Source: a virus
DNA: 64,000 nt
IMG/VR virus record: IMGVR_UViG_3300021197_001179
Coordinates: 1-64,000 of that record
Strand: one strand, 5' to 3'
The notes under the pieces are model-generated. The model was not told where the DNA came from and did no database searches. It saw only the letters and a list, made by a program, of their open reading frames with translations. Every line of letters starts with the position of its first letter. Position 1 is the stretch's first letter. The position numbers were made by a program, and so were the translations under genes. Shown here one piece after another: positions 2,084 through 55,500 of the stretch.

Positions 2084-3205
2084 TTATAGCAAGTATCCTA
2101 CTTCTCTGTCGATTTTTTCTAGCTGAACACCAAGCACAAAATCATCGGGTTTACTTATTCTTACATCCAATGTTTTGGTCTTATTTCCACCTCTTTTGTA
2201 GTACCTAGCATAGCCTTCACCAGAGAACTCAATCTTCTCAACTGACTCCTGTACGAACTTATGTTTGACCTTGTTCTCAACCTCACGCTTCTCCTTGTCA
2301 AGTATTTTAATCATAGCCTTAACTGTCTGAAGATGTTTGACCTGACCAAGTAGTTCGTCATCTCCCAACATCCTTTCATCCTCCATCTCGTGTCGTTCTG
2401 ACAAGTAGGTTGAATAGTTGTCGTTGTGATCAGCCTCCGGTTCGTACATCATAACCTCCTGTAGGTAGTCATTGTACATTTCTTCATCATCTAAATGAAG
2501 AGCTTCGTGAGCTTTTTTATGTGCTTCTCTACCCTTCAAGACTCTTGCCCAAAAGTCAGCAGTCTTCTCAATGATCATATCGATAATCGCTTCGTCTCTT
2601 TCAATTGGGAAAACCTTGAGATTTCTGCCATCAATGAGTACCGCAATCTCAGCATAGTCAGAACCCATTATAAGCATCTGCTGGTGTACTTGTGAGATGT
2701 AGTAGTCAGGAATACCCCCATCATAAGCCTTTGAAACAAAACTGCTCATGGTCTTTATCTCAAGTGGAGCATCATGTTCAAGTATCTCACCGGAGAATGT
2801 TCCATCGGCATTCAGTCTTGACGATCCTGCCTTAATAACCCTATCGTAGTTACAGAACAGCCAAGGGAAGTCAGGATTGCAAACACATCCTTTGAGATTG
2901 AACATCTTTCTCTGAATGATGCCTGATTCATAGTTGGTCATGTAGCCATTCTCCCTACCATCGTAATACTGCCACAGATTGGCAACGTATTCCTCTGTAT
3001 GAATCCCATGAAAGGCTGCTTCAGACATAATGTCAATGCGTTCCTCTGTACCAACCTTGATATGATAAAGCTCCATCTTGGTCGGTCTGTATGGATTCAA
3101 TCCACAGACAATGCCTGAGTCTGATGCTCCAAGTCCTTTCTTTCGGTATTCAAACCACTCAGGTGTTCTGTCTACCAATTCCGTTATCCATTCTTTCTTA
3201 ATCAT
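2084..3205 (-). CDS. YqaJ-family recombination exonuclease
   Basis: A 373-aa protein of the YqaJ/lambda-exonuclease fold (PD-(D/E)XK), which resects double-stranded DNA ends for the annealase. The N-terminus has the family signature (TPEWFEYRKKGLGASDSGIVCGLNPY). Further in are FHGIHTEEYVA (the E of the active site), a core with NPDFPW and LEIKTM (the ExK of the nuclease), and YYISQVHQQMLIMG, the conserved Q-H-Q helix. The C-terminal third is charged and helical. Its ATG overlaps the stop of the upstream small gene (ATGA), so the two are translationally coupled. Confidence 0.9.
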   Translation of the reverse strand: MIKKEWITELVDRTPEWFEYRKKGLGASDSGIVCGLNPYRPTKMELYHIKVGTEERIDIMSEAAFHGIHTEEYVANLWQYYDGRENGYMTNYESGIIQRKMFNLKGCVCNPDFPWLFCNYDRVIKAGSSRLNADGTFSGEILEHDAPLEIKTMSSFVSKAYDGGIPDYYISQVHQQMLIMGSDYAEIAVLIDGRNLKVFPIERDEAIIDMIIEKTADFWARVLKGREAHKKAHEALHLDDEEMYNDYLQEVMMYEPEADHNDNYSTYLSERHEMEDERMLGDDELLGQVKHLQTVKAMIKILDKEKREVENKVKHKFVQESVEKIEFSGEGYARYYKRGGNKTKTLDVRISKPDDFVLGVQLEKIDREVGYLL

Positions 3206-3372
3206 CCCTCTTTCTTTATATAATTTTTCATAGCATCTAAAGCACTATTCCCTTCTCCATACTTCACTCTATCAGGAAATGAAAAAAAGTCTGCTACAGA
3301 TCCATTGTCAAATGCATACCACTTCTTAGTGTATGGATTGTAGGTTGTGAGTATTCCGTAGTATTTTTCCAT
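3202..3372 (-). CDS. Small protein, paralogue of the 65-aa protein at 18259
   Basis: A 56-aa protein starting MEKYYGILTTYNPY and ending NYIKKEG. It aligns end to end with the protein at 18259-18456: YYGIL-TTYNPY versus YYGIL-ATYNPY, WYAF in both, then G-NSALDAMKNYIKK versus KSALSAMNDYISKK. Both its start and its stop overlap neighbours by ATGA junctions, placing it firmly in the operon between the SET gene and the exonuclease. Function unknown. Confidence 0.8.
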   Translation of the reverse strand: MEKYYGILTTYNPYTKKWYAFDNGSVADFFSFPDRVKYGEGNSALDAMKNYIKKEG

Positions 3373-3714: not shown

Positions 3715-5595
3715 TTAGTAAGGTAATTTATCGTCAAATATATCAGATTCTTTGTATGGGGTTCTAGCGTCAATCATTGACTGATTGTTTGCAGAACTAT
3801 CGTAGAAAGTTTGCCTCTCTTCCAACGGATTGTTTCCGTTATCATAAAACCTTCCCTTTCTAGTGTCAAATGTAAGCAATGCCTCTCCAGTTGTGCCATT
3901 CAACTCTTTCTTTTTAATCTTCTGTGAGATAAACTGAGATGTACTGTCAGCAGGATTAGAGTTGTAATATGGTCGATGAAACATGATGATGTTGTCGGCT
4001 TTGTTATTCCACATCGCTCCTCCCGCAAAGTCGTACACCCTTGGGCATTTGTAGTCCCCGGTTCTTTCGTCCTTCTGTATGGAACTGTTAGGGTGAGCCA
4101 CAATCACCATGTAGACATTATTCTCTAAGGCAAACTTCTTTTGTACCCTAAAGAAGTCCTCTAGAAACTGATCATCACGCATCCGAGTACTTCTGTCTCG
4201 GTATATTGCATTGAAAGGGTCGATCATGCAACCATCAATGTTGTGTCTGATCATAGCCTCAATAAACTTACGGTTGATGTAGTCCTGACTTGGCATCGCC
4301 TTCTCAGGATATATAAAGTAAAACTTGTCGTTAATCTTTTCAGCGGCATCTCTATACTCTTGCTCAGACATTTGGTTCTGATGGTGCTTATATGGAGACT
4401 TACCCACCAATGCATGAATCAATTGGTTGTAGAAAAACTTTGGTGGATATTGTTCTGGACTAAATACTGCCCACCGATACCCATCTTTCAATGCTTTCAT
4501 TAGCATTAACTGTAGCATCATGGTAGACTTGCCAAAGTTTCCGATACCTCCAACAATTGTAATCTCGCCACGCATCCACCTGAACCTTTCGTCTATGCTG
4601 TCAAAGTGTGTGGTTTCTCCCTTCTGATTGCCCGAATGGAAATCCTTCAGCATTTCATCAAAGATGTCGTTCAAGTAAATGACATCTTCCAACGGCTCAT
4701 CTAAATGTTCTAATTCAGCCTCAATGTTCTCCCTGGTGACTGAGTTGATTAGTTTCTCATCCTCCGTAAACTCAGCCGTACCAAAATCCTTCATGTAGTT
4801 CCGGTACACACTATTCAGAATCACATCTAATTCCTTGACCGTGAATGAACCTCCGCAGAAGTCAGCAATCATAGGTTCTCGTATTTCTTCTTGTTCTAAA
4901 CCAAATCTCAGACAACCACATGTAAGCTTGAACACAAAATTGTTTCTGTTTCCTTCGTAGAAACCTTCTCCCTTGTTCATCATCCAAGTCTTTAGCTTCT
5001 CGTAGATGGTGTTGTTGGTAGAGACTGTAATCTCCTTTCGTTCATACACCTTCTCCACAATCTGATCATACACCTCCCATTTAGTTTTGATGTGTATGTC
5101 CGGATCATAAGACTCAAAACAAATCCTACTCAGGTTTCTCCCTGACGGATCCAGGTTCGGAAAGTTCTCTAACAGACTATCAAAGTGTTCAAGATGGCGT
5201 TCCGGATGCTTAACCTCCACTAATGCTTTTACACCATTGTTGCTAGGAGAAGTCCAACAAGCAATTATATACTTGTTCTTAGATAGAGATTCTTTTACCT
5301 CAGAGGGCTTACAATCATCAAAGTCCAAACATATCAACCCCGTATAGCTAATGATGTTTGAATCATTACGAGACTTAAACACACCTGAGAACAATGGCGA
5401 TGGAAGTTTCTTCTTGTATGAATCTCGTTCAGCACCATAAGGCAACCTACGAACCTGCTCAACAAGTTTTCTTGATGTACCATCCTTGATTCTTCTTAGG
5501 GCATTACCAACAGTTGTGACATGTTTTGAATCAATGTCAAACAGATCCTGGTAAATACTTATCTCCCTATCCCACAACTTTATTCTACTATCCAT
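3715..5595 (-). CDS. Primase-helicase (VirE/BT4734-like N-terminus plus DnaB/RecA-like ATPase)
   Basis: A 626-aa two-part replication protein. Residues about 20-150 resemble the VirE N-terminal/BT4734-type domain (RRLPYGAERDSYKKKLP, then GLICLDFDDCK and the CWTSPSNNGVKALVEV segment), a primase-type fold. Residues about 210-275 look like a primase C-terminal helical domain. From about 325 comes a RecA-like hexameric helicase core: Walker A GGIGNFGKST, Walker B-like GCMIDPFNA, and a VAHPNSS segment. It would prime and unwind DNA at the fork. Its start overlaps the stop of the winged-helix gene upstream by 16 bp. Confidence 0.85.
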   Translation of the reverse strand: MDSRIKLWDREISIYQDLFDIDSKHVTTVGNALRRIKDGTSRKLVEQVRRLPYGAERDSYKKKLPSPLFSGVFKSRNDSNIISYTGLICLDFDDCKPSEVKESLSKNKYIIACWTSPSNNGVKALVEVKHPERHLEHFDSLLENFPNLDPSGRNLSRICFESYDPDIHIKTKWEVYDQIVEKVYERKEITVSTNNTIYEKLKTWMMNKGEGFYEGNRNNFVFKLTCGCLRFGLEQEEIREPMIADFCGGSFTVKELDVILNSVYRNYMKDFGTAEFTEDEKLINSVTRENIEAELEHLDEPLEDVIYLNDIFDEMLKDFHSGNQKGETTHFDSIDERFRWMRGEITIVGGIGNFGKSTMMLQLMLMKALKDGYRWAVFSPEQYPPKFFYNQLIHALVGKSPYKHHQNQMSEQEYRDAAEKINDKFYFIYPEKAMPSQDYINRKFIEAMIRHNIDGCMIDPFNAIYRDRSTRMRDDQFLEDFFRVQKKFALENNVYMVIVAHPNSSIQKDERTGDYKCPRVYDFAGGAMWNNKADNIIMFHRPYYNSNPADSTSQFISQKIKKKELNGTTGEALLTFDTRKGRFYDNGNNPLEERQTFYDSSANNQSMIDARTPYKESDIFDDKLPY

Positions 5596-10913: not shown

Positions 10914-10951
10914 ATAAAAAAAGGCAGTCCGTAAGGTATTTACGAACCGCC
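10914..10951 (-). terminator. Strong rho-independent terminator
   Basis: On the bottom strand a 12-bp stem (GGCGGTTCGTAA with TTACGGACTGCC, two wobble pairs) closes a 5-nt loop and runs straight into a T tract (TTTTTTTATTT). It separates the gene ending at 10958 from the gene starting at 10841. Confidence 0.9.
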
Positions 10952-10957
10952 TAATTA

Positions 10958-11350: not shown

Positions 11351-11832
11351 GCTTTCTGATTATTAGAGTTAGTAATGAAGTACCCATCGCCTAAGTTCCC
11401 TATCGCGGCATTATACCCTTCGATAAATGCATCTCGTTCATCAGATGTATCAAACTCGTGAATTGATGCTGATTCGCAATCAGGCACAATCTTAACTGCA
11501 TCTTCATACGTAGTACAATTCTCAAATCTATCCTCATCTTCAGAAGATGGTGCAATTAGAATATTGTACTGGGGCTTATGCATACCCACAAGTAGATCAG
11601 GCTCATGCTTTACGACAAACTCAAGGATGGCAATCTGAGCCATCTGTAGCATGGTAATACCATGTTGGTTGGAAACCAATTCCAAATTATTAATGCAATC
11701 CCATATAACCACTCTATTCGCATCTATCGACACGTTGTACTTGGCATAATCATTTTCGTCACACACACAATGTATGACATTAATCGCCTGATGTACGGCA
11801 TTCCAATCGGTATTCAAAAATGACTTTTTCAT
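11347..11832 (-). CDS. Hypothetical protein, 161 aa
   Basis: Starts MKKSFLNTDWNAVHQAINVIH; the ATG at 11832 follows an A/T-rich leader shared with other element-controlled genes, whereas an ATG at 11877 would lie within the hairpin. Contains NYCISLYD-free but Asp/Asn-rich segments, an SSEDEDRFENCTTYEDAV stretch and a FDTSDERDAFIEGYNAA helix of a type seen in other small early phage proteins. Function unknown. Confidence 0.7.
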   Translation of the reverse strand: MKKSFLNTDWNAVHQAINVIHCVCDENDYAKYNVSIDANRVVIWDCINNLELVSNQHGITMLQMAQIAILEFVVKHEPDLLVGMHKPQYNILIAPSSEDEDRFENCTTYEDAVKIVPDCESASIHEFDTSDERDAFIEGYNAAIGNLGDGYFITNSNNQKA

Positions 11833-11863
11833 GTTAAATGTTTTAATGAATGAATGTTTTGCA

Positions 11864-11909
11864 CCCCGAAACCCCATGTCGATTAAATCACGACATGGGG
11901 CATTCAGAG
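11864..11909 (-). promoter_or_regulatory. Intergenic RNA hairpin element, copy C
   Basis: Bottom strand: inner stem CCCCATGTCG / CGACATGGGG (11900-11872) with a 9-nt loop, an outer stem CTCTGA / TCGGGG with two wobble pairs, then GGTGCAAAACATT leading to the ATG at 11832. It is the most diverged of three related elements (see 13271 and 13972). Confidence 0.65.
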
Positions 11910-11922
11910 ATATGTTCAGCGG

Positions 11923-12399
11923 CTAAATTAAGAAGTTATCAACCAGTTTTGCAAGTAGTATCATAATAATTACCATTACAATCCACTTGGCATACTTCCA
12001 TTCCATTGCCTGATCCAAGTCTTCCGCTTGGCATGGCACATGGTATACTGTATCCTGAGATCTGATCATTAACACCCTTTCCTGATCACGATGCAACCAC
12101 ACATGACTACCGCCTCTTCCGCAACTCCAGTTATCGGAAACAATTTCATTTTCCCGTTCGAAATCTTCCATGCATTCTATCGCATCAGCTATATCGCCAT
12201 GTACAAACCGCAGTATCAAATCAGATTTCAACTCCTCGTTAATTGACTGACATTCTGATATATCACTTGCCATGTCAAAATGATTCTCGGCATTAGCATT
12301 CCATTGTTCTACCAGTTCGCGAACTCTATTTACCAAAGGATGATTTAGATCGTCAATAGATGGTACTGGCATATCGTAATTGATTTCTAGCTTTCTCAT
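11923..12399 (-). CDS. Hypothetical protein with C-terminal membrane anchor, 158 aa
   Basis: An acidic soluble part (MRKLEINYDMPVPSIDD at the N-terminus) ends in one transmembrane helix (WIVMVIIMILLAKLVDNFLI), making it a tail-anchored protein. It could tether an early phage function to the inner membrane. The gene ends at 11923 just before hairpin copy C. No family recognised. Confidence 0.75.
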   Translation of the reverse strand: MRKLEINYDMPVPSIDDLNHPLVNRVRELVEQWNANAENHFDMASDISECQSINEELKSDLILRFVHGDIADAIECMEDFERENEIVSDNWSCGRGGSHVWLHRDQERVLMIRSQDTVYHVPCQAEDLDQAMEWKYAKWIVMVIIMILLAKLVDNFLI

Positions 12400-12401
12400 G
12401 G

Positions 12402-12926
12402 TTAGTAGCTTAAATGGTTATCGTCTGTAGGTGTGCCTGATTTAATGCATTCCTTTGCGAACCTGATAACAGTCTCATCATAATCTCGATTAGCTTGTTC
12501 CCAGTATTCAGAATTGTGTACGTGATTGCGAACCACATATGCACAAGCAATGTCATAGATCTGATCGAATGTTTGAAACAACGTTCCTGATATCAAATCT
12601 TCACGTTGTATAACAGAAACTGCTAGTGCAATTTCCTTACAATAGACCTCCTTAAATCGCTCCAAGGCTTCAATGTACAGTCCAGTATCTAACGTCTTCA
12701 GATGTACTTTAGCAGTTAGCTTATTACCATACTCATTAATCATGTGGTTGTAATCTTCCTCCTCGTCAAAAAATTCGCCATCCACATATTTACTAAGCAT
12801 ATCGCTTTCCAGTACATCGTCACGTTGGTGATATTTGTAGAGGTAGGTACATACAATGTCCCAATAGTTTTCGGATAGGCTATTTTCAAGGCTATCAACT
12901 ACGTAGTTTTTCAAGTCAATTTTCAT
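12402..12926 (-). CDS. Hypothetical protein, 174 aa
   Basis: Starts MKIDLKNYVVDSLENSLSENYW; acidic and helical with many Tyr, Asp and Glu residues, and a C-terminal helix with IRFAKECIKSG. No motif recognised. Separated from the next leftward gene by 2 nt. Confidence 0.75.
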   Translation of the reverse strand: MKIDLKNYVVDSLENSLSENYWDIVCTYLYKYHQRDDVLESDMLSKYVDGEFFDEEEDYNHMINEYGNKLTAKVHLKTLDTGLYIEALERFKEVYCKEIALAVSVIQREDLISGTLFQTFDQIYDIACAYVVRNHVHNSEYWEQANRDYDETVIRFAKECIKSGTPTDDNHLSY

Positions 12927-12964
12927 GTTATTGTTATTATGGTTAGTTACTAATTTATGTTCGT

Positions 12965-13249
12965 TTAATAGCCTGAGAGCATTCGTTTCTCATCAGATGC
13001 ATGCTCTCTATCAATTCTATCTAAATGCATTGCACGATCAATGTCAATGGCATCAGAATCAGTTAATTCTAGTACCTGATATTCGCCTAGGTCATCATCA
13101 TCAGGGTACATGTCTATTAAATAATCTGTTGCCATTTCAGAACTGGCAAATACACCGTAGTTCTTAAAGTCTAGCATTAAATTTCCAGCCCAGTCTTTAA
13201 TCACAAAAAACTGAACACTATCAACATTGGTATTTTTCATGTTACTCAT
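12965..13249 (-). CDS. Hypothetical protein, 94 aa
   Basis: Starts MSNMKNTNVDSVQFFVIKDWAGN (an alternative start is the second Met at 13240). Contains YGVFASSEMATDYLIDMYPDDDDLG and a C-terminal acidic helix. Preceded by hairpin copy B and an A-rich leader. Unrecognised. Confidence 0.7.
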   Translation of the reverse strand: MSNMKNTNVDSVQFFVIKDWAGNLMLDFKNYGVFASSEMATDYLIDMYPDDDDLGEYQVLELTDSDAIDIDRAMHLDRIDREHASDEKRMLSGY

Positions 13250-13270
13250 TTTGGTTATGAATTGTTTGTC

Positions 13271-13316
13271 ACCTAAAAAGCCGATGCAGAATTAACTACA
13301 TCGGCTAAGATTAGGT
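13271..13316 (-). promoter_or_regulatory. Intergenic RNA hairpin element, copy B
   Basis: Bottom strand: outer arms ACCTAA (13316-13311) and TTAGGT (13276-13271), inner stem AGCCGATG / CATCGGCT (13306-13279), 12-nt loop, short U tract TTTTT. Preceded by TGATCCAATCACAT, which includes the stop codon of the gene ending at 13328, and nearly identical to copy A outside the stems. Confidence 0.75.
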
Positions 13317-13327
13317 ATGTGATTGGA

Positions 13328-13939
13328 TCAGTGAATTACCAGTCCAACTTTGTTGGTTTCATTGAACCACTTTGTTGCCATCAGGTCGCTGGACATGGCA
13401 TCAGCATAGCCAGCCTGATGTAACTCTTCATAGGATTGGAATATACGTGCATGTCGATGTCTCTCTGGATCTATCATGTGATCTACGGTAGATCCTTCCG
13501 AGAAGATGATATCGTAGTTCTCAGGCAAATCTTTCACAATAAACAATGGAATAGATTTGGTATAACTGTAGAAACGAACGTTAGGTAGCTTCTCAGCAAT
13601 CTTCATCCACTTGTTAATGTATTCAGGGCTGTAGTAATCGCCTGAGTCATGGACCCTAAGGTATTCTACCTTGTTCTTTTTGATAGCTTCTACCATGTCA
13701 TCTACAAAGCTATCTAACTTGGTTTGCTGGTATCGCCAAGCAAATGCTGGTTTCACATTGCTCCATGCATATGCACCTTTCTGAGCGTAGCAGAACTTAG
13801 CACAAGCTCCAGCAAATGGACATGTTCGTTTGCCAGTATCAGGGTCTTCAAATGCTGGTATACCAAAGTTCATGACTTTAGCACCAACAACTTTACTGGT
13901 CTTTTTTAACTTGGAATTTTGGGTTAATAATTTAGGCAT
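13328..13939 (-). CDS. GP88-family protein
   Basis: A 203-aa protein that matches the phage 'gene product 88' family: KKTSKVVGAKVMNFGIPAF, then TCPFAGACAKFCYAQKGAY with three closely spaced cysteines, then FLRVHDSGD-like (YLRVHDSGDYYS), FYSYTKS and IFSEGST segments. The cysteine cluster and the barrel-like run of short strands suggest a metal- or Fe-S-binding fold, but the biochemical activity of the family is unknown to me. The ATG at 13939 (MPKLL) is favoured because a start at 13996 would lie inside hairpin copy A. Confidence 0.8.
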   Translation of the reverse strand: MPKLLTQNSKLKKTSKVVGAKVMNFGIPAFEDPDTGKRTCPFAGACAKFCYAQKGAYAWSNVKPAFAWRYQQTKLDSFVDDMVEAIKKNKVEYLRVHDSGDYYSPEYINKWMKIAEKLPNVRFYSYTKSIPLFIVKDLPENYDIIFSEGSTVDHMIDPERHRHARIFQSYEELHQAGYADAMSSDLMATKWFNETNKVGLVIH

Positions 13940-13971
13940 GATTAATAGGTTAAATGTTAGTAATGTTTTGC

Positions 13972-14017
13972 ACCTGAAAACCCCATGCAAAATCAATTAC
14001 ATGGGGCAAGATCAGGT
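13972..14017 (-). promoter_or_regulatory. Intergenic RNA hairpin element, copy A
   Basis: Bottom strand: outer arms ACCTGA (14017-14012) and TCAGGT (13977-13972), inner stem CCCCATG / CATGGGG (14006-13981), 12-nt loop, TTTT tract, then GCAAAACATT before the GP88 gene. Preceded by the same TGATCCAATCACAT as copy B. Base pairs in both stems differ from copy B by paired changes. Confidence 0.75.
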
Positions 14018-14028
14018 ATGTGATTGGA

Positions 14029-14253
14029 TCACTTATCGCATTCAGATTTGTATGCTTGATATCCAAGGTAAATCATCGGAATGATTACGGCTATAGCCGC
14101 TACAATTGCAGTCTTCAGATTAGCTATGGAACTGGCACTAAGATCAGGAGACAATGATCCTGCCGTATAAAGATCCACTAGGATACACGTATACATAAAT
14201 AGGATAGCTGGAAGGACTCTAAGGTAGATTGCTTTGATAATTACTTTTTGCAT
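14029..14253 (-). CDS. Two-helix membrane protein, 74 aa
   Basis: A small hydrophobic protein with one segment near the N-terminus (IKAIYLRVLPAILFMYTCILV) and one near the C-terminus (IVAAIAVIIPMIYLGYQAY), joined by a Ser/Ala-rich linker. It would sit in the inner membrane with both ends on one side. Holin-like in size, but its place among early genes argues against a lysis role. The gene is preceded by a terminator. Confidence 0.7.
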   Translation of the reverse strand: MQKVIIKAIYLRVLPAILFMYTCILVDLYTAGSLSPDLSASSIANLKTAIVAAIAVIIPMIYLGYQAYKSECDK

Positions 14254-14273: not shown

Positions 14274-14304
14274 AAAAAAACCAGCTGGGATCACTTCCAG
14301 CTGG
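14274..14304 (-). terminator. Rho-independent terminator
   Basis: Bottom strand: 8-bp stem CCAGCTGG / CCAGCTGG (14304-14281) with an 8-nt loop followed by seven T residues (14280-14274). It follows the gene ending at 14314. Confidence 0.9.
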
Positions 14305-14313
14305 CGATTAGAA

Positions 14314-32832: not shown

Positions 32833-32867
32833 AAAGCCCTGACCTAACGGTTGGGGCTTTCTTTTTA
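32833..32867 (+). terminator. Rho-independent terminator
   Basis: Stem AAAGCCC (32833-32839) / GGGCTTT (32854-32860), 14-nt loop, then CTTTTTA. Confidence 0.8.
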
Positions 32868-32885
32868 TGTGTCCATAACAATGCG

Positions 32886-32893
32886 TATCTTTG
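32886..32893 (+). promoter_or_regulatory. Start-proximal promoter box
   Basis: TATCTTTG 4 nt before the ATG at 32898. Confidence 0.6.
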
Positions 32894-32897
32894 CTAT

Positions 32898-43555: not shown

Positions 43556-46500
43556 ATGGGTTTTGAAGGCACAGTAAGTTACGATGAGTTTGGCATTCCA
43601 ATTAAATCAAAAGCTGAAGAAGTAGCTGTTGATGAGTTTGGCATTCCAATAAAAAAAAAAGAAGAGACCGAAGTTTCCAAATCCCCTTCACAAGATGGAG
43701 AATCAGAATTTACAGAGCCTGAGACAGGAGTAGATGAGTATGGAAACGAAGTAAGTTTACGCCCTGGTTCTGAAGAACAAAAACCCTTCTATGCTCTTGA
43801 TGAAGAAAAGTACAGGGCAGAAAAAGATTCTGAAGAAGAAGAGGTTGAGCCTACCGGACCTACCGGAGCTACCGGAGCTGATGGTGCTTATCAAGATGAG
43901 GGCGCATATGGTGTTGCCGTCACCCCAACTGGTGCTGCTGTAGATTTAGACCAGCCTTATTATAGGGAACAAGATAAGATTAGACGAGAAGTAGCAAGTA
44001 ATCAATCCGTTTTTGGTATTGATAAGCCAGACGAAGATCTTCGTAATTACACTGCTATACCTTTACCTGTAGACGTTGAAAGTAATGAAGATGTAAAAGG
44101 CTATTTGAGTTCTCAGGTTGGTGATGTTCAAAACCTAGTAAATAGGGCATTATTAAACCCACAAGAATATGGGTATCCTGAAAGACTATCGTCTGCAAGC
44201 GAAGAAGACATTCAGACTCTTGTAAATGAGATGTGGAAATTTTCATCTCCTAAATTTGAGTCTTCCTCTGTTTCAGGACAGACACCATATGGGGTTTCCG
44301 TAGAGACCGAAACACAACCACTTCCTTTAGATTCTCAAGGAGATAACTTTATAAACCTTGACGAGTCTTACTTCAGGAATGTAGCAAGAAAGGCTATTGA
44401 TGATTACACTAGTTTATTTGAAGCTAATAGGAATAATGAAATTTTAGAGGAGTCTGTTAGATATTACTATGATAACGGCTATGCTCCAGAGGCAATAATG
44501 GGATCCTTATACAGAGATCTTTCATTGCAGGATGTCGAAAAAATGCCCCAAGAAGAAAGGGATTTGTATGATAACGTTGTAGAGCTAAAGAATATATCAG
44601 AACAACTAAACTCTTCTTCAAAACAATCTACAAAGAACGCAGGGCTTCAAACAAGGTACAATGACCTATTGTTAAAAAACAAAAGTCTAAGAAACACAAT
44701 AGGAAAAGATAGAAAGCCTCTTTACAACATGCTTACAGGTAAACCTGTTGATAAGCTTGATGGCAATTCAATGAACCTGTCATTTGCAATAGAAGATGCA
44801 AAGGAGAAGCTTACGTATGAAGATAATATAGAAGACTTATACATTAAAGCTTCTTTGGCTTCTAATGAGAATATAAGTTATGGTCTAAAAACCAAGAAAG
44901 ACATTAAGATACCATTGTCTGATATAGACTCTAGGGCTGCAATAAATTACTTGGAATCAAAAGGATACAAGAGAAAAAGTGCTGGTTACAGAGTTGTCGG
45001 ATTTGATCAGGTTTCTCTTTCTGACGTAGCTAACTTTAGCGTAAGAGGATCAATTAATGAAGAATTATCTGAAGAGGCAGAAAGGTGGCTAGACAGGAAT
45101 ACTGATTTAATGGTTGACAGGATAGCCGCAAGAGATATGTCGTTGCTCAATTTAGACCCAGGTAAGTACAGAAAAGAACAAATTACACTGCCTATTTTGG
45201 GTGATATATACCCAACAAGGATGGCAGAAGTTATTGGAGAGGAAGTTCTTCCTAAAGGGATGACTGAAGAGATAGGGCTGTCTGATGTAAAACTTGTGGA
45301 TAGCGCAATAAGACAACTCAAAAATAGCGGAATTAGTCTTACGGAAAAACAAGAAGAAAACGCAGAGAGAACTTTCGGATTAGAAGTTCAAGAAGGAGTG
45401 TCGGCTTTCGCCCCAATGTTGGTTGAACTGGCGGTGTTGAATAAAGCCGCTGGAGCGTTAAAGGTGGCTAGTGGATTAGACAAAGTACTTAAAGCGTATA
45501 AAGCAGGGAACAAATTTCAAAGGGGTACAGCAATATTAGCAGATGCCATTATTGAAGAGGGGACTATGCAGGTTGCCGGATTACAGCCCGGTGCTGGAGC
45601 TTCTTTTAGCATTATGGGTAATCGCCTTAGAAAGTATGGATTAGATAAGTTTCCTCTTAAATTTAAGGGGGAATTTGCTAGGATAAACAAGCTTGCAGAT
45701 AGCGTGTGGAGCAATTCAATGACGGGTGCTGTTACCATGGAGTTTGCCTCTAATGTAGAAGCTGCTATAGAGGACATTATGGGTGGAGAAACTATGCAGA
45801 ACCACTTTGAGCAGAATTATTCAGATTTATCTGAAGTTGGTAAAAGAGGCTTAGTAAATGCCTTTGTATTTAACATAATTGGAGGTAGAGGTTTAGTCGG
45901 AAAAGGTAAATCCGGATTCAGAATAAGAAGAATGGAGGAGGCTCGTGATGAGCTTCAACGTAAGGGACATAATTCAGAAGCTAAAGAATTAACAAATTAC
46001 ATAAACCAATACTACGCAGGTAAGCCGGGCAAATCTCAGAATCTTTCATACAACGATATGAAATTATTCGTTGATAATATGCCTGAAAACGAATCTCAAA
46101 CATTTACAGTTTCATCTCTTGAAGAGGTTCCTGAAGAATTTAGAGATAGAGTAAAAAGAGAACTAGAAGTTGAGAGGGAAGTTGATAGAACTTTCTTAGG
46201 TATTCCTTTGGGCAAAAAAACAACTAAAGAGGGAATTGCATATTCTTACGAAGTTACAGGCAAAGAAATGCGTGAGTACTTGAGTAAGACACAAGGAGAA
46301 AAAACTGATTCTGAGTTTAAAGACGATTTCAACAAATCCGAAAGAGAAGTAATGCGTAGGGAGTCTGTAGAAAAAGAGCCTACCGCTGAACCAAAACCGG
46401 AACCACCAAAAGAACAAAAAGATGATACGAAAACTACCGAACAAAAAACAAATCTCAGAGAAATAACAAGCGAGGAAAGAAAAGAAAGCGTGTTGCCTGA

Positions 46501-49500
46501 ACATGACAACTTAGGTATGTCAGATAAAAAATTCAAGCTGAAAAATGAATCATCCTTTGGGGATAAAGGATCTGTTGGAGTGTATGTAGATCCAGCTAAT
46601 GGGTCAGAGGATGTGTTTATGGTTATCCCTGACAGAACTGATGACTCAAATTATATTGGGTATAAAAGAGTTTACGAAAACGGAAAGCCAACAAATAAGT
46701 TTTCTATAAAAGCAGAAATGTCAAACTCTAAAAAGGGTGACACAAAAAAATCTTTTCAAGCCGTATCAGAAGCACTCCCCGAAGGTCATGTTTTAATTGA
46801 AACAGAAAATATATCTTCAGATGGGTTGATTCTTTGGTCTAATCAAATAAAAAACAACTACTCACCTACTGGCAACGTGTTTGAGGTAGGCGTTAATTTA
46901 GAGGGTAAGAAAGTAGTATTGGGAGGTACACGAAGTACGGGAAGTTTCTCAAAGGGCAATTTTACGGAAGAAGAGTCGGTAAAGGCTGAAAAAGAACTTA
47001 ATAAACTTATTGAAAATATAGAGGGGGCAAAGGTTGTTAGAAAAAAAATATCACCACCTGGAACGCCTAATCTATACCACTTTAGATTAACGCTTCCTGA
47101 ACTAAAAATAGATGATACGAAAACTACCGAACAAAAACTTGTGGAGGCTGGTGAGCAAGTCAGGGAAGAACCTGGGCGAGTTCAAGAGCCGGAAAGCGGC
47201 AGAGAAGAGGGAGAGACAAGTGATGTACTTCAAAAACAAGAAGAAGTAGATATTGAAGGAGTAGAAGGAAAAAAGGTAACCATTTCCGAAGACCATCCTA
47301 TAGACGAGTTAAATCTCGATCCTGATAGGTTTCAGTACAAGGTAGAAGGCTTAGAGGAAACAGGAGCTACAGGCTCACTAAAAGGGGTAAGACAATTTAA
47401 CAAAGAACTAGCAGGAGTTGTTTTAGCTTGGAAAGACCCAGCAGATGGCAAGACTTATGTTGTTAACGGGCATAATAGGGTTAATCTAGCAAAACAAACT
47501 GGTACAGATGTTATTGATATACGATATATAGAAGCTGATAACGCTCAAGAAGCTAGAGCTTTAGGAGCTTTAACAAACATAGCTGAAGGCAAAGGAACAG
47601 CTTTAGATGCTGCTAAATATTTTAGAGACACTGAAACCACAAAACAAGAATTAGAAGATTTAGGGCTACGCATAACAGATAAAATTGCTAACGATGGAAT
47701 ATCTTTATCTAATCTTAGTGATAGACTTTTTGATTTAGTGGCTCAAGGAAAGGTAACAAAAGAAAGGGGAGTAATCATTGGTGGTAAGATAACAAGCAAA
47801 GACGTTCAGGAGCAGGTGTATAAGATGATTACACCAAAAATGACCAATAAGCATTTATCTGAGATAGCAGACATGGCTGAAACTGCTCCAAAAGAAACAG
47901 CCACAGAGCAGACTCTTTTTGGAGAAACGGAAACTGAGAAAGCAGCTATAATTGAAAAAGCAAAGTTACTGTCTGATATACGTTCTAAATTAGTTCGTGA
48001 TAAAAACATTTTTGGTAACGCAGCTAAAAATGCGGAGAGATTAGAAGAAGCTGGAAATAAAATAGCTATAGAAGAAAGTGCCGACATTAGTAAAGAAGCA
48101 GCAACAGTTCTTGGTGTGTTTGATGCTATTAAAAACACAACACCGGAAATAACACAAATAATTAATAACACGGTCAAGGAATTAAAAGATGAGAAATCAA
48201 GAAAAAAGAGAAAAGAGCTTACAGAGTCAGCTTACTCAAGAATCAAGGAAGCCATACCAGCCGCTATCAAAGGAGTCGAAAGAAGTAGTGTCCAAAGAGG
48301 TGAAGAAGTACCTAAAGATACTGGAGTCGCTAGGGCTGAGAAAGCCGAACCAAAAAAAGTAACTAAGGAAAAGCCAACTGAATCAGAGATTGAACTAGCT
48401 CAAGACCTTCTTAGTGAAATAGAAGCTGAGAAAAAAACCAAAGATACCACACCAAAAACTGAACCTGCACCAAAAGAGGCTGCTCCTGATGCTAAAACTC
48501 AACCCAACGAGCTTTATAAAAAAGTTACGGCTGTTGAGGGTGACCTTAAAGAAACAGAGTATCAGATACAAGGAAATTCTGATGTTATAAAGAAACGTGG
48601 AGGAATTAAAAACAAAAAAGGGGAAGAAACATTTGACAACGGACCAAATACCTTTGAATCAAGATTTAAAGATAAGTTTCGTGTTAAAGATCCTGCTTTT
48701 GGAGATGCAAGAAATTTAGCAAGAGCAAAGGGCGCAGGGACTACGGGTAAGGTTGTTTCGGACATTAAAACAATTGACGGTAAGAGGTTCCTAAGGCTTG
48801 CGTTTAATGGAGGAGACACAAGAGGAGGAGCAGCCGCAGGGGTAACCATAAAAATACCTGAAGGTGTTGATGTAAAAGTATTTAGCGGCATACATAAGAA
48901 AGCGTTTCAAGAGGCAATAGATAAAAATATTGCAGACCCAAAAAACAATGAATACGACAAGGCATATTCTACGTATGACTTTATTATGAAAGAGAAGCAG
49001 ATAATGGCTGACATGAACAAAGCCAAATCTGCTCAAATTTCTAAAATAAAAAAATCCAATGAACCTGTTCCCGTTAAGGAGAAGCCAGTAACTACCCCTA
49101 AAGCAGAGCCTTCCGCACCTAAGATAACTTCAAATGTATCTCTTGGTGTAAGGGGGACTTTGTTTGAACCAGATAGACCTCTTATTGATAAAGGTGATAA
49201 ACCAGCTAGACAAATTGATCATATAGATGAATTTGGCGAAGAATATAGAGAATACTACCCAGCATTTGCCTGGGGACCAGAGTATGGTCCATATAACAAA
49301 ACCAAAAATGGAGATATATCTTCACACGTATGGTCAAATATTGCAGGTAAACCAACCTTAATTCTTGGTGTTGTGGGTCCAGAAATGAGAGAGGTTGGAA
49401 GACCGTCTTCTGTAGGAACGGTTTTTACTTTTGAAACCGTAGCTGATGCTAGAAAAGCTCAACCTAAAATAGAGCAAGACTTTAGAAAATTACTTAAAAG

Positions 49501-52500
49501 ATTTGAAGATAAGCTTAAAGAAGGTCCTAAAGGTTTCGCCCTGCAAGAAGATGTTGCTCCTGTTATACATAAATGGGCTACGCAATACACAAAACGAAAT
49601 AACGAACCTGCTCCTAAAGGAGATGTGCCTCAATTTAGAAAGGCAAAGCCCAAAAAGCTAAAGTGGACTAAGACCGTGGAGAAGTCTATGGCTAGTTCTC
49701 CAATTTCAAAGAGAGATGAAACTCTTAGAAAAGCAGTTGTTGATTTAGTTGAGGGTAAGTTGACAATGAATGAATTTAGGGAAATTCAGGACAGAGTTTC
49801 TCCAACAGGACCAATCGAAACATTCTTCGGTGCTATAACAGAAGCCAGAGCAAAAAGAGCTTTGAGAAAGACGCAAGCTGAGAAGTACGGAGACTTCTCT
49901 CAGCTAAAAGAAGGTGATTTTGTAGAGGGAAGACTTGATATTCCAGCATACTTAGCTAAAAATGCATGGATAGATTCCATACACGAATACAGCAAGGCAA
50001 CAGGTAGAGCAGGTAAGCCAATATCATACTTACCTGCAATGTACTTTTCGGGAGGGAAAGATGGAAAGGTTGTGTTTTCTACAGACCCAAGAGATGCCAT
50101 CAACATAGCTTCTGGTGCTATTCCAAAGTCAACCATAGCCAGAGTTCAGGGCAACTATAAAAAAGTCCCTGGGGAATGGAATACAATGGATGAAATGGGT
50201 AAAGCTGCTGAGAAGTTTTTTGAGCAGGAAATATTCAATAATCCAGAATGGAGGCAAATGGGTATGAATCCATTTAGAAGGTCTGATTTTTGGGATAGAG
50301 AAAACGGAAGAAGTGTTGAAAGTGCCGATGAAGTTTTTATGATCGGAGGTCTTGTGTATGGAAAGAACATTGAGTACTCTACCAAATCAAAACTGTTAGA
50401 AGATCAAGGAATTGCACTTGAAGGTGCTTTTGGGGTTTCTCAGATAAAATACATTTCTGTTCCAAATCAAATAACAAAAGAGGGATTGTTCAAACAGTCT
50501 GAGTTGGACGATATTGAATCAAAGACTCCGGAGTTATATCAGGAAATAATAGACCGTAAAACTGTAAACAGAGATGGAAAAATAAAGTACACTCTAAACA
50601 TGGTCAATCCTGATGGCAGTAAAGGTGGTCTAAAAATATTAGAAGAAAACCATCCTGACATATACAAAAGGGTTAAGCCTCTGTTTACCACATTTGTTGG
50701 AAAAGGAACTTCTCCTCTACTTGATTCTGAAGGGAACGTAGTAAAGTTTAGTAAACTGCCTATTGATAAGGAGGGTGTTGAAGCAAGAAAGACTGATGAG
50801 ACTGTCTCTAATGTGATTGACAACATGAATAGTGTTGAACTCGTCAACGAAGGTGTTGAAGTAGGTAAGCCGAAAACCACTGACAAAAAGATAGACGTTA
50901 AGGCTCTCAACAAAAGGGTTGCGAAGCCATACGAGATTGTAAAATGGGAAGACTTTGAAGGGCTTCCTTTTGTGTTTACTATAACCGATGCCCTTACAAC
51001 TGGAAATACAAAAAACCCCAACACAGGAAACACCATAAAAAACCTTTACGGTGGAATCGGATTTACAAACAGCAAGGGCAATTTAGGAGAAAACGCATGG
51101 GCAAGCGTAACTCCAACAGTTAGCGGTAAGTACATTGCAAACGCCTTAGAAGTATACGAAAACAACAAGGAACAACTTGATAGGTGGTGGGCTGATAATC
51201 CTGAGTACAACGGTCTTGTTCCTATGGCGGTTGTTAAGATGGGTCCAGACGGAATAGTTTCCAACGAGGCATTGTTCCGGGTAGCTAATGATAATATAAA
51301 GACTCACATCCCACCAGCCAATAGAAAGGCTGCGTTAACAGCCCTTGTGGGTACTGTAAATGCAAGAATAGCTCAATTAGAAGAGGCTGTCAATAAAGGC
51401 AGAACATTAAAATCTTTAGCAAACGAAAAAGCAGGTGAAAAAGTAGAAGGAGGCAAAGCCACTAAGAAAAACATAGAGAGCTACGAAAAGCAAATAGGTC
51501 AAAACAAAGCCATACTGGATGTTGTAAAGAAAAATAAGATAACCAAAATTGACGGACTTCTTGACACCCTTATGGAACTTCCTTTAGGGACAAGGGCTAT
51601 CGTTTCTAAAAATGTATTCTATGGTGACTTTAAGGCTGAGAAGCCTGGTAAACCAGGAAAGGATGTGGCAATAGCTTTATTGGAGGGGCTTGATGTTGAT
51701 GCAAGAAAGTACATTAACATTAAGAGTCTAGCTGAAATAATAGAGGAAAAATCATTTAGTGACATACCTGACTCACACATTGTATCTATTGTAGGAGTTG
51801 ACGTTCTAAACCCAAAAATAAACGTCACGACAAAAGGTAAACAGATTCTGCGAGAGGATATAAAAAGGTTCAATAAAGAGGGTAAAAAGGCTGAAGCAAA
51901 AAGGCTTCAAGAAATACTTGACAATGCAGGTAAAGCCATACATCCTAACTACCCATTTGCAGTACCCGGCAGATCCATCGGTATTCTTGAGTCTCCAGTT
52001 CACATGGGAGATGCTTTTGCTGAAGCATATGCAAGTGCATTAGCTATAGTCACCAAGAACGAAGCAGAACAAAAAGCAATAAAAGAAGCTTCTGCTTTAA
52101 AACAAGGAATACCGGTTCAAATGGGACTTCCAAACAAAGCTTTTAGAGGTGCTATTGCAAGAACCAAATCAACTGAAGTTGACAAACTAATCAGTTTTGC
52201 AAACAGGGCTTTCCCTTCTGCAAATGTATTTACATCTCCAGAAGCTTGGGAAAGGATTATGAATCGTCCTAATGTCCGAAAAAGGGTTGTTGACGGAGAG
52301 ACTGTGTATGGACTTACAATCCAGGGGGATATTTATCTCAACCCCAAGTTCAAGGAGTTCAACACACCTATTCACGAGTACGGTCACCTTTGGGGGGACA
52401 TGATTGAGGCTGACAACCCTGCTTTATTTAATAAAGGTAAGGAGCTTGTAAAGCAAACAGAAGCTTACAAGAGAAACCTGAAAGAGTCAGAGGAAGTTTA

Positions 52501-55500
52501 CGGTAAAGGAACCAGAGAAGCCGAGATGGATGCTGTTAAAGAAACAATGGCAGAACTTATAGGTGATAAGGGTGAGAAAATAGCCAACGAAAGTGTAAAA
52601 CAAGGTTGGAAAGAATGGTTACTTGGTCTTTGGAAATACTTGCAGTCTAAGTTTCCAAACCTTAAATCATTGACATTAAAGGACATAGAGAACCTTACAC
52701 TTGACCAATTCCTTGGAGGTGCTTTGAGAGACATTATGTCTGGTAAAGAAATAACTTTTAAGAAGTCTAAGAATAAGTCTCCTATGAAGAGGAGTGCAAA
52801 GGGTGCTAACGAAAATATTTTTGCAGAAAATATTGAAGCAGCTTTAGCAAAAGGCGCATCTCTTGAAGCAATAAAGGAAGCGTACAAACGAAAAATAAGA
52901 CAGGAAAATGTTGGCAATCCTGCTGAAATATCAAGGCTTACAGTTGAGCTTGAAAAGGCTATTGCTCAGTTCAGCAAAAAGCCATTGGTTGGAAAGAACA
53001 CACCGACAGACCTACAAGATAAGCTTGGTATTGAGTTTAAAGATGGCAACAAGTTAGAGGTTAACAGAAAAACTCTTTCTTCTTGGGTAAACAACACATT
53101 TAAGAAAGGTTATTCAGCCGGAGCCAAAGACGAGAGAACCAAAAAGGCTGAAATCAATCGTGTTAAAAAGAGCATTGAAAATCAGATTGCATCGCTATTG
53201 AATACAATGGTCAAAGCTCAAGGAAAGGGATTAATATCAACTCAAAAAAGTCTTGCTATAGTCAATAAGTTCAGGAAGACAAACCTGTTGAATCCAGATT
53301 CAGTCGAAAGATTTGTATCATACTTTGATAATGCGCTTACAAAAGCTGGCTATGTAAAGAAAATAGCTGAAGCAAACGATTTAAGAAAAAAGATTCGATC
53401 AAAGCAAAAAGACGAAAAGGTAGATGTTGCCTTAACAGACGTTGCAAAGAAGTTTACAAAAATAGACCCAAACAAGCTGTCTGACATAGATGAATACATC
53501 GAAATAGCTAAGAGTGTATTAAATGGTGTAAGTAAATCAAAAGCGGGAAAAGACGGTATTAACTGGAGGTCTGCTTTTGACATAGACAAAGTAAATAACT
53601 ACTTGGAATCAAAGTTAAAAGACCAAGAGGAAGAAGCTTTGTCAAGGATGGAAGAGAAGTTTATGAAAACGTTTGGCATTGACCCTGAAGGTAAGTTCAC
53701 CAGACAACAGATGATGGAGGCTCTGAAACAAATAAAGGACGAGTCTCTTGATAGAGCCAAGGAAACCAAAATAAGAACGGAAGCAGTTAATGTCTTTAAC
53801 ACATACAAGGCAATAATTGAAAGAATGCTTTCAGATAAAGAAGACCCGTTTTCTTTTCCAAAGACAGGTATTCCAAGTGTTGACCGAAACACAGAGAAGC
53901 TAATTACAAGGTTCGTAAACATGGACCCGAAAAGGCTTGAGATTACTGATTTGATTCAAGCCGTAGATGCCCTGAATAATTTCTTGGTTAATCAAACAAC
54001 CGGAGGTCTTGAGAAGATTGTAAGTAGATACGAAGGAGCTACGGGAGTGGAAAGCCTGGTTTTAAAGAAAAAGATAAAAGCAATTCCGATTAGACTTGGA
54101 AGCAAGTTTATAGGTAGAGCAGTAACTGAGAAGATATCTACAATCCCGGTGATGCTTGAGCAAATGTTTGTTGGTTCAAGAAAAGCTTTAGTTGTTGCAG
54201 AAACCTCCGGTTATAGCGATATCTCTGAGGGCAATGCTGCTGCTCTTAAAAACACAGAGAAGGTAAGAGACTTATACATAGACAAGTTCAAAAACAAAAA
54301 ACCTAATGGAGAAAAATTCTCTAGCGCAGCCAATATAACGGAAAGAGGAATGCTTGCCTTTATGATGAGGTCTACATTAGACAACAATCCTGATAAAATA
54401 CAGGACACGTTTGATCGAAGAAAAAACCTTATGAAGGAAAACATAGAGGTTTTAAAAGAAGCTATGGGACCAGAGGGCAGTAGAAACAAGACAAATGAAA
54501 AGCTGTATGATCTTTACAAAGAAGCATACGACAAAATCCTTGAGGGTTCCGACAATATTTCCGAGGTACAATCAAAAACAGACCCAATTAACAAACAAGC
54601 CGTTGATTTTTGGGTTGTAGAGTTCAATAAGATACTCCCTAATTTACAAGCAGTTTCTACAAACATCTACAACAGTGAGCTTGTATTAGAGAAATATTAC
54701 AATCCTGATATTTACAGGACATTAGAACGTACAGGTGGGCAACAATTAGAGTATGATGAATCAAAAGGGTCTTTCAATGATTTAACATCGGGCATTTACG
54801 AAAAGAAGAGTCCAATGATGATTCGGGTTAAAAAGCCAACTAGATTGCCTAAAGAAAGGTACATAAGCCTTGAATTTGATTTGAATAATATTCACGCTTA
54901 TGAAGCTGCTTTGGTTGACATCAACACTGCCACCGGTATCCAGGTATATTCTGGGTTTGTAAACAACAAAGCGTTCTTTAATAAGCTTATCGAAGACCCA
55001 AGGGATAGGACTTTGTTCCGGACACGTATGGAACAATACATGCGAGACATAAGAAACAAGAACTACATTAACGACCCTTACGGCAGAAAAGTGGTGGAAT
55101 GGACTGACTTTATATCTAGGGTTGGTACTACACAAGCTCTGGGGGGATTAACTCAGGCTCCTAAACAGTTTATTCCTGTAATGGTAAACACTGCCATAAA
55201 TGCTGGTACTTTAGATTTGAATGTCTCAACATTGTTTAACCCTGATGTCATTGAGGCTATCGCAAATTCAGGGATGCCAATCGCTAATAGAGGAATAAGG
55301 TCTCAGACCCAAATAGAGGGGATGAGAAAACAGCTAAGAAATCTAGCTGCTTTCGAAGGAAACAAAGCAGAAAAAGCTGTAAAAAATATACAGGATTTCT
55401 GGCTTGAGACGTTCCTGAAAAAGCCTGATGTGTTGGCGGCACAATCATCTTTTATCACTTACTATAAAAAAGAGCTTAAAAGGCTTGGTTACGATATAAG

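Follow-up and report, generated by a model that had tools for sequence, protein, structure and literature searches.

The DNA analysed here (the window; 64,000 nucleotides) makes up most of a 64,371-bp virus record. Between its left end and about 15.5 kb, almost every gene lies on the bottom strand. The phage encodes a long primase/helicase with a BT4734-like N-terminal domain, which, together with A-rich leaders that have no Shine-Dalgarno motifs, suggests a Bacteroidota host; the count of Bacteroidota promoter motifs in the window was not above chance. We looked for an annotated cultured relative of this phage and found none. Between 9 and 15 kb lies an accessory region of mostly orphan genes, at which the contigs of the closest relatives stop or diverge. 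One of the genes in this region, at 13328-13939 on the bottom strand, belongs to the gp88 family (PF17338; E = 2.6e-39).

Three copies of an intergenic hairpin

A single element of about 70 nt recurs at three gene junctions of this region, always on the bottom strand: 11852-11918 (copy 1, 11.9 kb), 13260-13330 (copy 2, 13.3 kb) and 13961-14031 (copy 3, 14.0 kb). Copies 2 and 3 flank the gp88 gene in direct orientation. A first-pass annotation had placed bottom-strand hairpins at 11864-11909, 13271-13316 and 13972-14017, and all three are present. Each copy lies after a stop codon and before a start, on the transcribed strand, and consists of the stop, 10-13 nt, an outer stem, an internal loop, an 11-bp inner stem, three to five U residues and the outer 3' arm; this arm ends in GGTG and is followed by a CAAAAC tail, an A-rich leader and an ATG 20-31 nt from the tail. 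The common order of parts described in that annotation is the same in the three copies, except that the U tract forms part of the internal loop and precedes the outer 3' arm.

Copy 3 (98.2 bits) begins with the TGA stop of the open reading frame at 14029-14253, followed by a 10-nt spacer, a two-part hairpin at 13971-14018 and the conserved tail GGTGCAAAAC at 13965-13974. The outer stem of its hairpin pairs UACCUGA with UCAGGUG, and an internal loop (UCUU/UU) separates this from the inner 11-bp stem at 13980-14007. Copy 2 (95.6 bits) begins with the TGA stop of gp88 and continues with a spacer, a hairpin at 13270-13317 (outer UACCUAA/UUAGGUG, internal loop UCUU/UU, inner 11-bp stem 13279-13306) and the tail GGTGACAAAC. 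In copy 1 (67.6 bits) the hairpin spans 11864-11909, with an outer stem of CUCUGAA/UUCGGGG, one bulged U and an inner 11-bp stem at 11871-11901 that encloses a 9-nt loop; its tail, again GGTGCAAAAC, is at 11856-11865, and the next ATG is at 11830-11832. Copies 2 and 3 share 82% identity across 68 nt; in a correction to the first-pass annotation, the 13.3-kb tail is GGTGACAAAC. In copies 2 and 3 the TGA of the upstream gene is the first codon of the repeated block, and the outer stem is of the ACCUGA/ACCUAA type. In copy 1 a separate TAG stop of the upstream gene (11923-11925) lies 13 nt before the stem, and the outer stem is of another type, weaker and rich in G-U pairs.

With their flanks included, the three copies are 64-82% alike, while the genes on either side differ from copy to copy. 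As these neighbors are unrelated, it is the element itself that was duplicated, and not the genes. A terminator scan also found two canonical terminators with T7 tails on the bottom strand that lie outside the hairpin family, one with a 9-bp stem at 14280-14305, one gene upstream of copy 3, and one with a 13-bp stem at 10922-10952. The presence of these two in the same operon indicates that the repeated hairpins are not simply the usual terminator of this phage. We also considered a promoter cassette and rejected it, as there is no Bacteroidota-type or sigma-70-type site at the window hairpins. Elsewhere in the window (32833-32894), a terminator-promoter junction of the late operon consists of a canonical terminator and, within about 30 nt behind it, the Bacteroidota-type -7 element TATCTTTGC; the late region also contains a single 4415-aa open reading frame at 43556-56803.

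Folding and paired changes

The three copies fold with energies of -27.8, -25.8 and -27.7 kcal/mol (copies 1 to 3) and z-scores of -4.2, -7.6 and -4.3, and none of 200 dinucleotide shuffles of any copy folded as well. A covariance model, R1, was built from the three copies and recovers each of them with E <=7e-13, as is to be expected of the sequences that made the model. For the three window copies, coincidence is ruled out. The paired stem changes reported between the 13.3- and 14.0-kb copies were borne out, in that every stem difference between them preserves pairing, four by changes on both sides: one A-U/G-C replacement in the outer stem, two G-C/C-G swaps in the inner stem and one inner G-C/A-U replacement.

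We extended this comparison to alignments of four and six copies, both of which were fitted to the structure and are biased in its favor. Of the cells in the alignment of four copies, 93% are paired, and double-sided changes occur at 9 of 18 pairs, versus 4.1 in shuffles. With six copies, 93% of cells pair against a mean of 75% in shuffles, and double changes occur at 11 of 18 pairs and in 18 cells (5.7 and 6.9 in shuffles). When the partner was shifted by one to three columns, pairing fell to <=49% and double-changed pairs to <=3. The outer stem was assessed separately by comparing own with swapped arms in eleven candidate copies, which gave p=0.027 overall and p=0.21 once the window copies were removed, and several candidate relatives have only a weak outer stem or none. 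The inner stem is thus well supported, and the outer stem is well supported only in the window and its nearest relatives.

Copies in relatives and chance controls

Selection on RNA structure, as first proposed from the window alone, is further supported by a covariance-model scan of relatives, a check suggested at the same time, which found copies with additional compensatory changes in two other phages. Among 0.5 Mb of close relatives, R1 identified a fourth copy at L019:262-328(-) (E=0.0056), in a phage whose terminase is 88% identical to that of the window phage. This copy follows the stop of an unrelated 159-aa gene and has stems of different sequence and the same tail, GGTGCAAA. The next 260 nt or so contain no gene start, an argument against a pure translation leader. 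A scan of 0.97 Mb of gp88 and primase relatives yielded a probable fifth copy at L097:1460-1525(-) (E=0.092), in a distant phage with a primase only 39% identical to that of the window phage. L276 and L279 carry a 48-bp, 92% identical counterpart of the L097 element, with different flanking genes and a paired change from A-U to G-C in the inner stem. The robust family consists of the three window copies, L019 and L097 with L279/L276, and probably also L280, which was found by motif search and has R1 support at E of about 0.04. The inner 3' arm, the UUU and the 6-nt spacing to GGTG are constant across copies, and in the robust copies the element lies 10-16 nt after the stop and is always oriented with transcription. 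An exact search of viral contigs for the flank TGATCCAATCACATACCT found nothing, and Rfam returned no family match at the gathering threshold and only irrelevant weak matches at E<=10.

Scanning viral contigs for GGNTTTNNRGGTGCAAAAC gave about 33 distinct matches, among them five further intergenic phage hairpins (L269/L256, L261, L279/L276, L280 and L097). Nearly the same pattern was used on cellular genomes, where the tail motif had 76 matches, 1-3 of them with a hairpin; the combination is rare in 257 Gb of cellular sequence. The difference (about 5 of about 33 versus 1-3 of 76) is only suggestive of an enrichment of hairpin-bearing matches in viruses. The cellular matches do not point to a host-genome feature, as nearly all are chance-like and many would encode Gly-Phe-x-Gly-Ala-Lys if in frame; of the cellular candidates, L356 (Lysinibacillus) is an ordinary terminator-like hairpin and L307 is doubtful. 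In the phages, a coding explanation of the conserved tail was also rejected: in L097 and L204 stops interrupt the frame, and in others it is offset, which indicates that the element is non-coding. Under a further model, R2, motif-selected chance matches from cells scored 14-25 bits and the Lysinibacillus hairpin 44 bits. Four phage candidates (L204, L261, L138 and L269) scored 16-20 bits, and we did not accept them as members, since their layout is right but their scores equal those of the chance controls.

Other structured elements were found in the relatives. In the distant gp88-carrying phages (L003 and L010-L013), gene junctions carry hairpins of another family, which are long and A-T-rich and have the ends TTAGAG...CTCTTAA. 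Each genome has several of them, as a rule with about 12-25 nt between the preceding stop and the hairpin and about 20 nt between the hairpin and the next start. They show strong covariation with many compensatory changes, and their inner stem has a one-base asymmetry close to its foot. They lie at 3183-3237 and 4459-4513 in L003 (identical copies that bracket the gp88-containing segment), 724-773 in L010, 7983-8038, 8633-8683, 9925-9975 and 10951-11001 in L011, 2585-2641, 3467-3518, 4944-4998 and 9928-9982 in L012, and 5122-5178 and 5785-5843 in L013. Hairpins that border accessory genes have therefore arisen with unlike sequences from one phage to another, and this parallel family supports the general reading of the window element while lowering the novelty of the single case.

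We also observed several structures of other kinds. Two tRNA-like pieces, at L012 10612-10738 and L366 9240-9280, have an acceptor-type stem and a T-arm (GAGGGGTTCGATTCCCCTC) with no normal tRNA body; the L366 piece, an acceptor stem and T-arm only, resembles a minihelix, and ARAGORN found nothing in either. Directly after gp88 in L005 (10595-10720) is a compact, multi-branched RNA candidate (TTTGAGGG...CCCTCAA) with a copy of AGTAATGCACTAA on each side; this target-site-like duplication takes in the stop of the gene. The bottom strand of L017 has a gene-free stretch of about 350 nt (~1330-1900) with many local hairpins, which looks like a large structured RNA and has no Rfam match. In the early region of close relatives, a motif of the form TTGTCA-N8-TGACATTTTA, with the inverted repeat TGTCA/TGACA and often a subsequent CAGGAAC, is repeated upstream of genes (L035 near 9270, 8185, 6800 and 5320 on the bottom strand; L039 555-590); it is a candidate promoter or operator and was not seen at the window hairpin junctions. 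Distant primase relatives have a conserved terminator directly before a Bacteroidota-type promoter-like stretch (GGTGATGGTGATTATATTTGC), which is likely a terminator-promoter cassette (L081 9008, L088 14420, L091 14429, L096 14422, L105 14402, L109 14139, L113 14401 and L114 14429).

A putative expression signal at accessory-gene borders

Small repeated intergenic stem-loop cassettes are known from other phages. The two nearest kinds link gene starts in non-structural regions to repeats that are stem-loops or inverted repeats. In T4-type phages, promoter-early stem-loops (PeSLs) occur in accessory, fast-shuffling regions, where, according to PMC4503421 (which cites Arbiol et al. 2010 and Comeau et al. 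2014), they adjoin unrelated genes and offer homology at module borders. The window stem-loops are likewise intergenic and follow an upstream gene, but the element has only three copies, a sequence of its own and the conserved GGTGCAAAAC tail. No PeSL-type early promoter (TTG-N18-23-TAnnTTTG) was present near the three hairpins and no sigma-70-like site within them, although the phage may use another promoter type. As for module shuffling of the PeSL type, the window copies bracket gp88 and adjoin unrelated genes, and no recombinant genome pair was seen. The ESAS/SAS elements of cluster K mycobacteriophages also combine an inverted repeat with a conserved short sequence upstream of selected non-structural gene starts (PMC3203893); SAS, a motif of 13 bp, lies 3-9 bp upstream of the start, and ESAS has a SigA-like promoter and a conserved repeat sequence (PMC11373665). 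The window element resembles them in being a repeated inverted repeat with a conserved short sequence before starts, but its tail is 20-31 nt from the start and of other sequence, its stem sequence varies freely, and scans for Bacteroidota-type and sigma-70-type promoters saw none at the window hairpins. Given the lack of a recognizable promoter and its own tail and spacing, we do not file the window element under PeSL or SAS/ESAS; it is best called a repeated intergenic regulatory hairpin of a general kind known in phages, with its own tail sequence and spacing.

The hairpin probably serves as a small, movable signal that stops or tunes gene expression. Specifically, we tentatively favor, with less than even confidence, an intergenic cassette at the borders of accessory genes that would work like a terminator or attenuator. 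Among the roles first offered for the hairpins (weak terminator, processing site or protein-binding leader), the evidence leans to the terminator or attenuator, because the inner hairpin, U run and 6-nt GGTG spacing recur even in copies with a weak outer stem. As in an intrinsic (Rho-independent) terminator, a stable G-C-rich hairpin with U residues stands right after the stop codon, and the constant inner hairpin, the UUU and the fixed distance to RGGTGCAAAAC would fit a signal read by RNA polymerase or at the RNA 3' end, putatively one for weak termination, attenuation or pausing that also protects the upstream message. Several features set it apart from a pure terminator. The U run is short (3-5), and only copy 2 passes the terminator scan, with 3-4 T in the other two. 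The outer stem has its 3' arm past the U run, over which it closes; it is unneeded for termination yet is kept in all three window copies. The conserved downstream tail is equally unneeded. As the outer stem could close only after passage of the polymerase, it may add a post-transcriptional role such as stability or putative RNase III processing.

A site for RNase III-type processing as the main function seems unlikely. In such a site a putative cut in the internal loop would leave a protected 3' end upstream and a short, defined 5' leader downstream. Sites of this type, as at T7 early gene junctions, are irregular intergenic hairpins with an asymmetric internal loop between two stems, a description that fits the window copies (about 18 bp in total, with a 7-bp outer stem, an asymmetric 4/2 internal loop and an 11-bp inner stem, where an RNase III site would have some two helical turns of irregular helix), and the double changes that maintain outer-stem pairing are in keeping with it. 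However, the total helix is shorter than in T7, the outer stem is weak or missing in several candidates and does not pass the swap test outside the window, and the conserved 3' tail would be left unexplained. Less likely still is a recognition site for a protein (an antiterminator, translational regulator or pausing factor) that would read the hairpin and a single-stranded RGGUGCAAAAC tail. Tail sequence and spacing are indeed fixed while stem sequences change, but no protein family was common to the element-bearing contigs examined, which are partial, so the reader would be a host factor or be encoded outside the contig parts examined.

We find it improbable that the element is a DNA-level repeat or a mobile or recombination module, with a hairpin maintained by palindrome-correcting replication. 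Paired changes can arise through template switching even if the RNA is not under selection, direct copies bracket gp88, and the same element stands beside unrelated genes in several phages; against this, the orientation is always that of transcription, the U run and tail are always on the 3' side, the robust copies start 10-16 nt after a stop, and covariation is seen in the outer as well as the inner stem, across an asymmetric loop. That ordinary terminators sharing a few bases look alike by chance is very improbable. The overlap of the motif-selected phage matches (16-22 bits with L279 included) with cellular chance matches and the higher score of the Lysinibacillus hairpin would be in line with this, but the similarity of the window copies extends into their flanks and refutes chance for them, the discovery of L019 and L097 involved no prior selection by motif, and the 48-bp match between L097 and L279 extends far past the selected motif.

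Under the terminator- or attenuator-like reading, the transcript would fold right after the stop codon into a G-C-rich hairpin with a short U run and the RGGUGCAAAAC tail. This hairpin may act as a weak intrinsic terminator or attenuator and protect the 3' end, so that read-through would fall and small accessory genes within one long leftward operon would be expressed separately, while the A-rich leader behind it would be left open for translation of the next gene. Because its neighbors are unrelated genes and a copy stands on either side of gp88, the cassette may also supply short homology for swapping accessory genes. We give low probability to a bolder version, in which the hairpin, UUU, 6-nt spacing and RGGUGCAAAAC form a previously undescribed, horizontally spreading phage RNA cassette, read by a host factor or RNA polymerase as a pause or attenuation signal, with which unrelated phages would set accessory-gene expression and mark exchange borders.

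The internal regulation of the accessory, mostly orphan regions of environmental phages is almost unknown. A compact border element that keeps its fold while its sequence drifts and that moves among unrelated genes would mark both expression units and exchange points in these regions. The covariance model provides a handle for counting the element in metagenomic phages, and the element is testable with simple reporters.
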